12,779 nt of DNA from Mycobacterium sp. (GTDB lineage: Bacteria; Actinomycetota; Actinomycetes; Mycobacteriales; Mycobacteriaceae), in the NCBI GenBank assembly GCA_025965815.1, contig JAOPWF010000816.1, positions 1 to 12,779 on the forward strand. The letters run 5' to 3'. A model generated the notes under the pieces. That model was not told the origin of the DNA, made no database searches, and worked only from the letters and a program-made list of their open reading frames with translations. The position numbers and the translations under genes were made by a program. This document shows, in pieces, positions 5,472 through 8,707 of this stretch (position 1 is the stretch's first letter; each line of letters begins with the position of its first letter).

Positions 5472-6623
5472 ATGACGTCACCAGGTGGACCGCCGCAGGG
5501 CACCGGGGGTTTTTCCGGTCCGGGCGGAGGTCCGGGACCCGGCTATCCGCCGGGCGCTCATTCGGCTCCGCCGTCCCCTAACGGAGGCGGGCTGGCCGCA
5601 GAGGTGCACACCCTGGAACGGGCCATCTACGAGGTCAAGCGCATCATCGTCGGCCAGGACCAACTCATCGAGCGAATCCTGGTGGGGTTGCTCGCCAAGG
5701 GCCATGTGTTGCTTGAAGGTGTGCCCGGCGTAGCCAAGACCCTGGCTGTGGAGACGTTCGCCCGGGTGGTCGGTGGCACCTTCTCCCGCATCCAGTTCAC
5801 CCCGGACCTGGTGCCCAGCGACATCATCGGCACCCGGATCTACCGGCAGGGCAAGGAGGAGTTCGACACCGAGCTCGGCCCGATCGTGGCCAACTTCCTG
5901 CTCGCCGACGAGATCAACCGCGCACCGGCCAAGGTGCAGTCCGCGCTACTGGAGGCGATGGCCGAACGTCACGTGTCGATCGGCGGCAAGACCTATCCGA
6001 TGCCCAAGCCGTTCCTGGTGATGGCCACTCAGAACCCAATCGAGAACGAAGGCGTCTACCCGCTGCCCGAGGCGCAGCGTGACCGCTTCCTGTTCAAGAT
6101 CAACGTCGACTACCCGACGCCGGAAGAAGAACGCGAGATCATCTACCGGATGGGCGTCACCCCACCCGAGCCCAATGCCATCCTGGCCACCGGTGATCTG
6201 CTCCGGCTGCAGGGACTGGCCAGCAACAACTTCGTGCACCACGCGCTCGTGGACTACGTGGTGCGTGTGGTGACCGCGACGCGTCAGCCGGGTCAGTTCG
6301 GCCTCAACGATGTGGGCGCCTGGATCGCGTTCGGCGCGTCGCCGCGTGCGTCGCTGGGCATCATCGCCGCCTCGCGTGCGCTGGCGCTGGTCCGTGGGCG
6401 CGACTACGTGGTTCCCCAGGACGTCATCGAGGTCATCCCCGATGTGCTGCGGCACCGCCTGGTGCTGACCTATGACGCGCTGGCCGACGACATCTCACCC
6501 GAGACGGTGATCAACCGCATCCTGCAGACGGTGGCGCTGCCGCAGGTCAATGCCGTTCCGCAGCAAGGTCACTCGGTGCCGCCCGTGGTGCCTGCCGCAG
6601 CGGCCGCGGCCAGCGGTCGGTGA
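5472..6623 (+). CDS. moxR1: MoxR-family AAA+ ATPase MoxR1
   Basis: AAA+ ATPase of the MoxR class. These act as chaperones that mature or remodel partner complexes, usually together with VWA-domain proteins encoded next door. The 383-residue product begins with a Gly/Pro-rich, disordered stretch of about 40 residues. The ATPase core has Walker A GVPGVAKT (83-90), Walker B LLADE (143-147) continuing into the MoxR hallmark [16 protein letters not shown], sensor 1 ATQNP (from 185), and [13 protein letters not shown]. The conserved mycobacterial C-terminus ([13 protein letters not shown]) ends in an Ala-rich tail. The ATG start has GGGAGG (5459-5464) 7 nt upstream; an in-frame GTG at 5457 overlaps that ribosome site and is unlikely. 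Its TGA stop overlaps the GTG start of the next gene (GTGA), indicating translational coupling. Confidence 0.95.
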
Positions 6624-7594
6624 GCGAATCCACCGCTCGCGACGACGGGCCCGCCGGCAAGCCGGCAGTCCACCCGCCGTCGATGCTGCGTGGCGACATC
6701 GGTGACCCGAAGCTCGCGGCGGCGCTGCGCACCCTGGAGCTGACCGTCAAGCGCAAGCTCGACGGCGTGCTGCACGGCGATCACCTTGGCCTGATTCCCG
6801 GGCCGGGCTCCGAGCCGGGGGAGTCGCGGATCTACCAGCCGGGCGACGACGTCCGCCGGATGGACTGGTCGGTGACGGCCAGGACGTCGACGCCGCACGT
6901 GCGGCAGATGATCGACGACCGCGAGTTGGAGACCTGGCTGGTGATCGACCTGTCGGCCAGCCTGGACTTCGGCACAACCGGCTGCGAGAAGCGTGACCTG
7001 GCGGTGGCCGCAGCGGCGGCGATCACCTTCCTCAACAGCGGCGGCGGCAACCGCGTCGGCGCGATCATCGCCAACGGCGAGAACATCGTGCGGGTGCCCG
7101 CGCTGTCCGGACGGGCGCACGAGCAGGCGATGCTGCGCACCATCGCCACCGCTCCCAAGGCCGCCATGGGCACCCGGGGTGACCTCGCGGCCGCCATCGA
7201 CGCCCTGCGTCGTCCCGAGCGCCGCCGCGGGATGGCGGTCGTCATCAGCGACTTCCTCGGCCCGATCAACTGGATGCGCCCGCTGCGTGCCATCGCCGCG
7301 CGTCACGAGGTGCTCGGCATCGAGGTCCTCGATCCGCGCGATGTCGAACTGCCCGATGTCGGCGATGTCGTCCTGCAGGACCCCGAGACCGGGGTCACTC
7401 GCGAGTTCACTATCGACGCGCAGCTGCGCGACGATTTCGAGAAGGCCGCCGGGGCGCATCGTACGGAGGTGGCCCGTACGCTACGCCGTTGCGGCGCACC
7501 GCTTTTGACGATGCGCACCGACCGTGACTGGATCGCCGACATCGTCCGCTTCGTTGCATCGCGGCGGCGCGGGGCGCTGGCCGGACGCCAATGA
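6620..7594 (+). CDS. DUF58 protein of the MoxR module (Rv1480 homologue)
   Basis: A 324-residue soluble protein matching M. tuberculosis Rv1480. It carries the DUF58 signature PGDDVRRMDW (74-83) and the vWA-like metal-site remnant DLSASLDFG (110-118). A second conserved block is VISDFLGPINWMRPLRAIAARHE (written here only as a landmark near 215-237). DUF58 proteins are encoded with MoxR ATPases and transmembrane VWA proteins and are thought to be clients or adaptors of MoxR; the molecular role is not established. The GTG start overlaps the moxR1 stop (GTGA) with no Shine-Dalgarno, so translation depends on coupling. At its own stop, CAATGA creates an ATG overlapping the TGA. That ATG starts a relay of mini-ORFs leading to the next gene. 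Confidence 0.92.
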   Translation: MSESTARDDGPAGKPAVHPPSMLRGDIGDPKLAAALRTLELTVKRKLDGVLHGDHLGLIPGPGSEPGESRIYQPGDDVRRMDWSVTARTSTPHVRQMIDDRELETWLVIDLSASLDFGTTGCEKRDLAVAAAAAITFLNSGGGNRVGAIIANGENIVRVPALSGRAHEQAMLRTIATAPKAAMGTRGDLAAAIDALRRPERRRGMAVVISDFLGPINWMRPLRAIAARHEVLGIEVLDPRDVELPDVGDVVLQDPETGVTREFTIDAQLRDDFEKAAGAHRTEVARTLRRCGAPLLTMRTDRDWIADIVRFVASRRRGALAGRQ

Positions 7595-7703
7595 TCCTCA
7601 CGCACAGGCCGGTCGAACCACACGAGTGAAATGACACGACTGAAATGCCATGCCCGAAATAACAAGCCGTAATGACAAGCGTGAAATGACAAGCCTCACA
7701 TGA
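7591..7703 (+). other. Relay of five overlapping mini-ORFs linking the DUF58 and VWA genes
   Basis: Every stop codon in this stretch overlaps the next start codon. The DUF58 TGA (7592-7594) overlaps ATG 7591, which opens a 12-codon ORF (MILTHRPVEPHE) stopping at TGA 7627-7629. GTG 7626 gives a 2-codon ORF stopping at 7632-7634. ATG 7631 gives 13 codons (MTRLKCHARNNKP) stopping at TAA 7670-7672. ATG 7672 gives MTSVK, stopping at 7687-7689. ATG 7686 gives MTSLT, stopping at 7701-7703. That last stop overlaps ATG 7700 of the VWA gene. The junctions are ATGA, GTGA, ATGA, TAATG, ATGA and ATGA. No Shine-Dalgarno is visible, so ribosomes could reach the VWA gene by repeated termination-reinitiation. 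The peptides themselves are probably not functional. The arrangement recalls mycobacterial interspersed repetitive units (MIRUs) at DTGA sites. Confidence 0.6.
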
Positions 7704-7705
7704 CT
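7628..7705 (+). repeat. Degenerate 14-bp tandem repeat (core GAAATGACA)
   Basis: Cores begin at 7628 (GAAATGACA), 7642 (GAAATGCCA), 7656 (GAAATAACA), 7669 (GTAATGACA), 7683 (GAAATGACA) and, more weakly, 7697 (CACATGACT). The steps are 14, 14, 13, 14 and 14. The best unit is GAAATGACAAGCCT. The last, degenerate unit contains the ATG of the VWA gene. The block is clearly richer in A than the coding DNA around it and shows no hairpin. It underlies the mini-ORF relay at 7591-7703. Confidence 0.8.
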
Positions 7706-8707
7706 TTGCCGTTGTTCGGCCCGATGACACTGTCGGGATTCGAACACAAGTGGTACCTCCTGTTCCTGCTGGTGATCCTGGCGCTGATCGGGCTCTACGT
7801 CGTCGTGCAGATGGCCCGGCAGAAGCGGGTGCTGCGGTTCGCCAACATGGAGTTGCTGGAAAGCGTGGCGCCCAAGCGGCCCACCCGCTGGCGGCATCTG
7901 CCTGCGATCCTGCTCATCGCCGCGCTGCTGCTGCTGACCGTCGCGATGGCAGGTCCGACGAACGATGTCCGGATCCCGCGCAACCGCGCGGTGGTGATGC
8001 TGGTGATCGACGTGTCGCAGTCCATGCGGGCCACCGATGTGTCACCGAACCGGCTGGCGGCGGCGCAGGAAGCGGCCAAGCAGTTCGCCGACCAGCTGAC
8101 GCCGGGCATCAACCTGGGTCTGATCTCCTACGCGGGCACCGCGACCGTGATGGTGTCACCCACCACCAACCGGGACGCCACCAAGAACGCGATCGACAAG
8201 CTACAACTGGCCGACCGCACCGCCACCGGTGAGGGCATCTTCACCGCGCTGCAGGCCATCGCCACGGTCGGCGCGGTGATCGGCGGCGGTGACCAACCGC
8301 CACCCGCGCGCATCGTGCTGATGTCTGACGGCAAGGAGACCGTGCCGTCGAACCCGGACAACCCCAAGGGCGCCTATACCGCGGCCCGCACCGCGAAGGA
8401 CCAGGGTGTGCCGATCTCGACCGTCTCGTTCGGCACGCCGTACGGCTACGTGGAGATCAACGACCAGCGACAACCGGTTCCCGTCGACGACGAGATGCTG
8501 AAGAAAATCGCCGACCTGTCCGGCGGCTCCTCCTACACGGCGTCCAGCCTGCAACAGCTCAAGGAAGTCTTCACCTCGCTGCAGGAGCAGATCGGATACG
8601 AGACGATCAAGGGTGACGCCAGCGTCGGCTGGCTGCGGCTCGGGGCCCTGGTACTGGCGGTTGCGGCGCTGGCGGCAGTGTTGATCAACCGGCGGCTGCC
8701 GAACTGA
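7700..8707 (+). CDS. Membrane VWA-domain protein of the MoxR module (Rv1481 homologue, BatA-like)
   Basis: A 335-residue membrane protein matching M. tuberculosis Rv1481. Two hydrophobic helices (about 17-37 and 66-84) precede a von Willebrand factor A domain. The MIDAS motif is DVSQS (D104, S106, S108) in [10 protein letters not shown], with the later TTNRD and LMSDGKE elements also present. A third helix (about 311-330) ends the protein just before the basic tail NRRLPN. This topology is that of BatA/BatB-like proteins, which work with MoxR ATPases. The start is ATG at 7700, giving [14 protein letters not shown] like the orthologue. No ribosome site is seen; the start overlaps the stop of a mini-ORF, so expression probably depends on ribosomes arriving from upstream. 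The next gene, fabG1, is 79 nt away. Confidence 0.93.

Follow-up and report, generated by a model that had tools for sequence, protein, structure and literature searches.

The DNA analysed here, a stretch of 12,779 nucleotides from Mycobacterium sp. (assembly GCA_025965815.1, contig JAOPWF010000816.1; hereafter the window), belongs to a draft genome that is 81% complete and is divided into 877 contigs. This genome shares its genus with the loci named Mycobacterium and Mycolicibacterium in the comparison below. Pfam analysis of the predicted products identified a MoxR-type AAA ATPase, a DUF58 protein, a VWA/BatA-like protein, two NlpC/P60 proteins, two short-chain dehydrogenase-type proteins and ferrochelatase (hemH). 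We call the two dehydrogenase-type genes fabG and inhA, labels that derive from the gene order. The listed start of the MoxR gene is GTG 5457, and ATG 5472 is probably the true start, with a strong Shine-Dalgarno sequence (-10.2 vs -2.3 kcal/mol at GTG 5457). The DUF58 and VWA genes are separated by an A-rich spacer (35% A) with a G+C content of 51%, compared to 71% in the DUF58 gene and 66% in the VWA gene.

Five mini-ORFs and six stop/start overlaps connect the DUF58 stop at 7592 to the VWA start at 7700 (Table 1). The first-pass annotation had described this relay, with ORFs of 12, 2, 13, 5 and 5 codons, and all of its elements proved exact on re-reading. The start of mini-ORF 1 sits at the position taken by the VWA start in relatives with a direct overlap, and the sequence CCAATGA was seen in both (three relatives). 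At the other end of the chain, the TGA of a small ORF overlaps the VWA start in the ATGA at 7700-7703. Additionally, the VWA start was said to lack a Shine-Dalgarno sequence, and this holds: the best duplex with the anti-Shine-Dalgarno sequence reached -2.7 kcal/mol, close to the median of -2.5 for 1000 random 18-mers, while inhA in the same window gave -7.2.

Table 1. Features at the DUF58-VWA junction, in coordinates of the window.
Feature	Position	Strand	Details
DUF58 family gene (upstream)	6620..7594	+	PF01882, E 4e-80; stop TGA 7592-7594 overlaps ATG 7591
Mini-ORF 1	7591..7629	+	12 codons, ATG 7591 to TGA 7627-7629
Mini-ORF 2	7626..7634	+	2 codons, GTG 7626 to TGA 7632-7634
Degenerate 14-nt tandem array	7627..7704	+	5.6 copies, 75% matches, consensus TGAAATGACAAGCC
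Mini-ORF 3	7631..7672	+	13 codons, ATG 7631 to TAA 7670-7672
17-codon ORF, not part of the relay	7650..7703	+	ATG 7650; stop also on the VWA ATGA
Mini-ORF 4	7672..7689	+	5 codons, ATG 7672 to TGA 7687-7689
GAAATG (start of mini-ORF 5 and the 3 preceding bases)	7683..7688	+	Most conserved spacer block in relatives
Mini-ORF 5	7686..7703	+	5 codons, ATG 7686 to TGA 7701-7703; stop overlaps VWA ATG 7700 (ATGA)
VWA/BatA-like gene (downstream), no Shine-Dalgarno	7700..8707	+	PF13519, PF00092, PF07584

Most of the spacer is covered by the tandem array, and five of the six matches to its unit found in the window at up to three mismatches lie inside 7627-7704. An intact copy recreates the ATGA overlap because 14 is 2 mod 3, and since the spacer is a tandem array, the overlaps are copies of one another and not independent events. 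The array accounts for much of the length of the chain. Mini-ORF 3 spans two copies in which the ATGA has been lost, and stops at TAATG. At up to one mismatch, the own genome (81% complete) contained no array of this unit beyond the window and only one isolated match. The nearest other junction locus is 0.31 substitutions per site away, so that arrays are compared between species only.

We then determined how readily such a chain arises by chance. When spacer dinucleotides were shuffled between an unaltered DUF58 stop and an unaltered VWA start, some unbroken relay appeared in 21% (ATG, GTG or TTG starts) or 28% (ATG or GTG starts) of 300 shuffles. A relay of at least five steps was seen in 0.22% of 20,000 such shuffles, and in 0.005% of 20,000 random spacers of 67% G+C. 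We also modelled neutral decay of a perfect array by 8-10 substitutions (a hand count) and either no deletion or one, with 20,000 runs per setting. Some relay survived in 18-21% of runs, and with one deletion exactly five steps remained in 9-13%. As neutral decay keeps a relay this often, the window alone is no proof of selection on it.

We therefore turn to the relatives. A total of 202 loci were collected, and 16 were dropped because DUF58 was missing from the results, neither gene was matched or the VWA match began late. The 186 loci with a DUF58-VWA junction gave 159 distinct junctions, window included: 44 direct, with a -4 overlap, and 115 gapped. Of the 159 VWA starts, 155 fell within a stop/start overlap (ATG and GTG starts), although these junctions are related and the counts are not independent. 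Counting mini-ORFs that start either at the DUF58 stop or within the gap, we found a mini-ORF stop on the VWA start in 112 of the 115 gapped junctions (111 if TTG starts are omitted), compared to 67.5 in shuffled junctions (sd 4.9, maximum 81, 300 runs). Complete relays were present in 64/115, with 46.2 in the shuffles (maximum 55). With hops allowed, the largest jump was 10 nt or less in 87/115 (shuffles 59.5, maximum 70) and 20 nt or less in 102/115 (shuffles 74.6, maximum 87), and in 13/115 even the best path required a jump of more than 20 nt. Tree-based counting was applied only to the length changes described below, and all other junction counts ignore kinship. The four junctions that lack an overlap at the VWA start were L022, L098, L105 and L143, with duplex energies of -5.9, -4.5, -4.5 and -2.9, respectively; in L143, a 9-codon frame stops 3 nt before the VWA start, as judged by eye. 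The number of overlapping hops ranged from 0 to 5 for the same gene pair. Five-step relays were also found in L087 and L112 and a four-step relay in L025, and the spacers of these three junctions contain a repeated unit of 32 nt, a length that is again 2 mod 3. L045 (M. frederiksbergense LB 501T) has a three-step relay.

A dispersed repeat made up of ATGAGCGCTTGCGCGAAGAGC and a variable tail is present in 25 copies at up to one mismatch in the own genome (L222, L233-L256), and was also seen in the spacers of L023, L025, L040, L046, L052, L087 and L112. A search of 41 genomes detected it in 21, of which a few lie outside the genus. Neighbouring copies were 32 nt apart in 13/24 spacings (2 mod 3, recreating ATGA) and 33 nt apart in 7/24. 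In an uncontrolled count, arrays of this repeat began at the TGA of an open frame of at least 100 codons in 20/48 cases. The repeat string had no occurrence in the open-access literature searched.

Other junctions of the same operon region served as controls. A mini-ORF stop fell on the downstream start in 1/126 fabG-inhA junctions (shuffled 2.4) and in 10/36 VWA-fabG junctions (shuffled 9.1), with no excess in either. The inhA-hemH junction showed a small excess (8/40; shuffled 4.5, maximum 8), and complete relays there numbered 5/40 (shuffled 2.6). Given this small excess, bridged junctions may not necessarily be confined to the DUF58-VWA pair. The base after the VWA start codon was A in all 116 gapped junctions of the control comparison, as opposed to 24/36 at VWA-fabG, 46/126 at fabG-inhA and 8/40 at inhA-hemH. 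The MoxR-DUF58 junction was dropped as a control, with 8 junctions only. As outgroups we used the best-scoring 20 of 108 matching genomes outside the genus, which cover other genera in both the family and the order. The DUF58 and VWA genes overlapped directly in 20/20 of these loci (-4 in 16, -1 in 4), and direct overlap is therefore probably the ancestral state.

Additional copies of the VWA gene were also seen. A second VWA gene in the own genome (L289; G000:C845:16913-17917) is 85% identical to that of the window; no DUF58 was found in front of it, and hence there is no junction, and it may be a paralogue, a contaminant or a misassembly. The duplex energy before its start was -4.1, compared to -2.7 in the window. 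In G011, G019, G065, G068 and G081, the first VWA gene is immediately followed by another, diverged one with 69-73% identity to the query.

One subtree, whose loci include M. gordonae, M. asiaticum and M. scrofulaceum, kept the connection through changes in spacer length. Its junctions were complete in 60/61 cases, 23 of them direct and 37 bridged. Among the gapped junctions, lengths of 1, 7, 10, 19, 28, 31, 34, 43, 46 and 97 were found, all 1 mod 3, along with 29, 42 and 138; the junctions of 42 and 138 are two-step relays, and that of 29 (L113) is incomplete. Parsimony on the tree gave 19-20 changes to a gapped length, and the new length was 1 mod 3 in 16-17 of them, for which P under an expectation of one third is 7e-6 (16/19) or 6e-7 (17/19). 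Complete gapped junctions numbered 37/38, compared to 25.9 in 200 mononucleotide shuffles with lengths kept (maximum 32). A conserved frame of VWA relative to DUF58 was considered and rejected, since direct and one-step bridged junctions differ in frame within one subtree.

The window belongs to the part of the tree outside this subtree. Of the 115 gapped junctions, 74 had a 5-codon ORF that starts with ATG at -14, and 66 of these lay outside the subtree. In these 66 junctions, the window included, complete relays were at chance level (20/66, expected 20.5), and the DUF58 stop was not in ATGA or GTGA in 36/98 junctions outside the subtree. According to the first-pass annotation, relatives in which the overlaps are broken would refute the relay; such breaks occur at the upstream hops, but the last hop is kept. 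A DNA search with 7600-7760 gave a similar picture. Of 396 genomes in the genus, 148 had a match, and among the matches listed outside the own genome none began before query base 63 and most began at 83-84 (7682-7683, where GAAATG starts) or 98-102, so that the upstream array copies were matched by no relative among them.

We next examined conservation by position, as parsimony changes, in the 67 junctions outside the subtree with gaps of at least 25. The six bases of GAAATG (-17 to -12) showed 1, 3, 2, 0, 4 and 1 changes, compared to 10-20 at -25 to -18, 6-15 at -11 to -5 and 4-7 at -4 to -1. This pattern points to constraint on a start codon and the bases immediately ahead of it, with the peptide less constrained. 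Functional mini-ORF peptides were rejected, as the codons of the last mini-ORF vary among relatives, and the encoded peptides are probably irrelevant. Presence of the mini-ORF went along with weak pairing to the anti-Shine-Dalgarno sequence. A duplex at least as strong as -4.4 kcal/mol was found in about 1 of 73 junctions with ATG at -14 (1%), compared to 26% of random 18-mers, 90% of the 41 other gapped junctions and 100% of the 44 direct junctions. In L008, L014, L098 and L105 the ATG at -14 is replaced by AAG, and the duplex energy there is -4.5; L008 and L014 have, in addition, a bridging frame of 12 codons.

Taken together, these comparisons tip the balance modestly towards coupling of VWA translation to DUF58 by termination-reinitiation, through a conserved last mini-ORF that has been tandemly multiplied in the species of the window. 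The first-pass annotation had proposed that a ribosome finishing DUF58 could step through the whole chain to VWA. Of this, the tie of the VWA start to an upstream stop stands: it extends to the outgroups, exceeds the shuffles, is unlike the fabG-inhA and VWA-fabG junctions, and is kept in one subtree by frame-preserving changes in spacer length. Selection on the complete relay, on the other hand, did not find support. Use of the path by ribosomes, and any importance of the hops that precede the last one, we only infer. We favour the last mini-ORF as the indispensable link in the coupling, whereas a five-step relay in the species of the window is plausible and unproven. In its full form, where one post-termination ribosome would serially translate DUF58, the five mini-ORFs (2-13 codons) and VWA over 105 nt without scanning, we regard the relay as possible but doubtful.

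A different reading of the upstream hops is that only the last mini-ORF matters, with ribosomes entering at or near mini-ORF 5 and the remainder of the array being a product of passive replication slippage, so that the upstream overlaps are by-products. The chance level of complete relays outside the subtree, the survival of relays under neutral decay and the lack of upstream array copies in the relatives' listed matches all agree with this. However, five-step relays are rare in shuffled spacers, two of the array copies that lack ATGA are spanned by a longer frame that terminates at TAATG, and short hops are commoner across the gapped junctions than in their shuffled counterparts. We consider passive slippage a tentative explanation, short of likely. 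Alternatively, GAAATG could aid initiation at VWA directly, as a non-canonical ribosome site or a standby site, with no reinitiation involved. The GAA is indeed conserved equally with the ATG, but pairing to the anti-Shine-Dalgarno sequence is weak (median -2.9 in the ATG-14 class), conservation of T at -13 (60/67) suits a start codon and not a Shine-Dalgarno sequence, and the bridging frame in L008 and L014 takes the place of the missing ATG, which together make a direct aid improbable. A promoter or leaderless start for VWA inside the spacer is very unlikely: leaderless mRNAs are common in mycobacteria (PMC4633059) and the spacer is rich in A, but a search limited to sigma-70-type promoters found no such site within 7400-7900.

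The same interval contained no intrinsic terminator, and inverted repeats were absent from 7560-7760. The fold of the spacer was weaker than that of most shuffles (168/200 at least as stable; z-score +0.98), and no Rfam match reached the gathering score in the window. A structured RNA element was rejected on the unremarkable folding and the lack of an Rfam match.

Coupling through the last mini-ORF suggests the following course of events. The ancestor would have carried a direct stop/start overlap, and sequence would later have been inserted between DUF58 and VWA. The VWA start would have remained functional, as it continued to coincide with an upstream stop codon. Here, that stop belongs to the 5-codon mini-ORF, whose start 14 nt upstream may replace the missing Shine-Dalgarno sequence. 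In the species of the window, this mini-ORF would have been multiplied through tandem duplication of the 14-nt unit and, because each copy (2 mod 3) recreates ATGA, an unbroken five-step path from the end of DUF58 to VWA would have become available to the ribosome.

Termination-reinitiation at AUGA has been demonstrated with reporters in M. smegmatis (PMC11260477), and M. tuberculosis is reported to have an excess of small ORFs coupled through RTGA, some of which keep the linkage in the absence of peptide conservation (PMC4633059). It is disputed whether a terminating ribosome scans to a distant start or needs an overlapping one (PMC10666635, PMC12548453). Coupling was almost gone at ~20 nt for six gene pairs in two other species (PMC10666635), while of two studies cited in a review, one saw no influence of spacing up to +25 nt and the other still found coupling at +50 nt or more (PMC12548453). 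The gene pairs described in these two sources share with the present junction co-oriented ORFs and stop/start overlaps of -4 and -1; they involve one overlap and two genes, whereas in the window a series of mini-ORFs carries the overlap across 105 nt. The RTGA-coupled small ORFs likewise have a TGA that overlaps the next start, and a linkage that is conserved while the peptide is not, but those described are leaderless and lie ahead of annotated genes, unlike five serial ORFs inside an operon junction (PMC4633059). In the uPPE2-PPE2 system, an upstream small ORF delivers ribosomes via AUGA to a main gene that lacks a Shine-Dalgarno sequence, but as a single uORF behind a riboswitch and not at a junction of operon genes (PMC11260477). 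The short ORF mgtQ, between mgtC and mgtB, also promotes translation of the next gene; going by the section titles of that report, it acts with stem-loops and acidic codons, and no stop/start chain is named in them (PMC8092293).

The spacer also resembles the mycobacterial interspersed repetitive units (MIRU), repeats that lie between operon genes and carry small ORFs overlapping the flanking genes in the same direction, with no dyad symmetry (PMC12548453, PMC4473831). Small ORFs that overlap contiguous ORFs in the same orientation are present here, and dyad symmetry is likewise absent. However, the unit here is 14 nt and the 81% complete own genome has no other array, and MIRU membership was rejected, as there are no dispersed copies at up to one mismatch apart from the window and the isolated match. 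A relay of several mini-ORFs was not described in the titles and abstracts of the best-ranked open-access literature on coupled mini-ORFs or MIRU, and the string GCGCTTGCGCGAAGAG was absent from the open-access literature searched. The same literature yielded no title on translation of Rv1480, Rv1481 or MoxR1, and neither Rv1480 nor Rv1481 is mentioned in the main text of PMC9094748.

If the multi-hop relay is true, junction spacers would grow mainly in ways that keep the path, and repeats of 2 mod 3, of 14 nt here and 32 nt in relatives, would be coupling elements that can expand and so adjust the ratio of the two products. Junctions with 0 to 5 hops between the same two genes provide a natural series for the cost per hop, and this series would show how repeats can lengthen an operon spacer while the downstream protein is retained.
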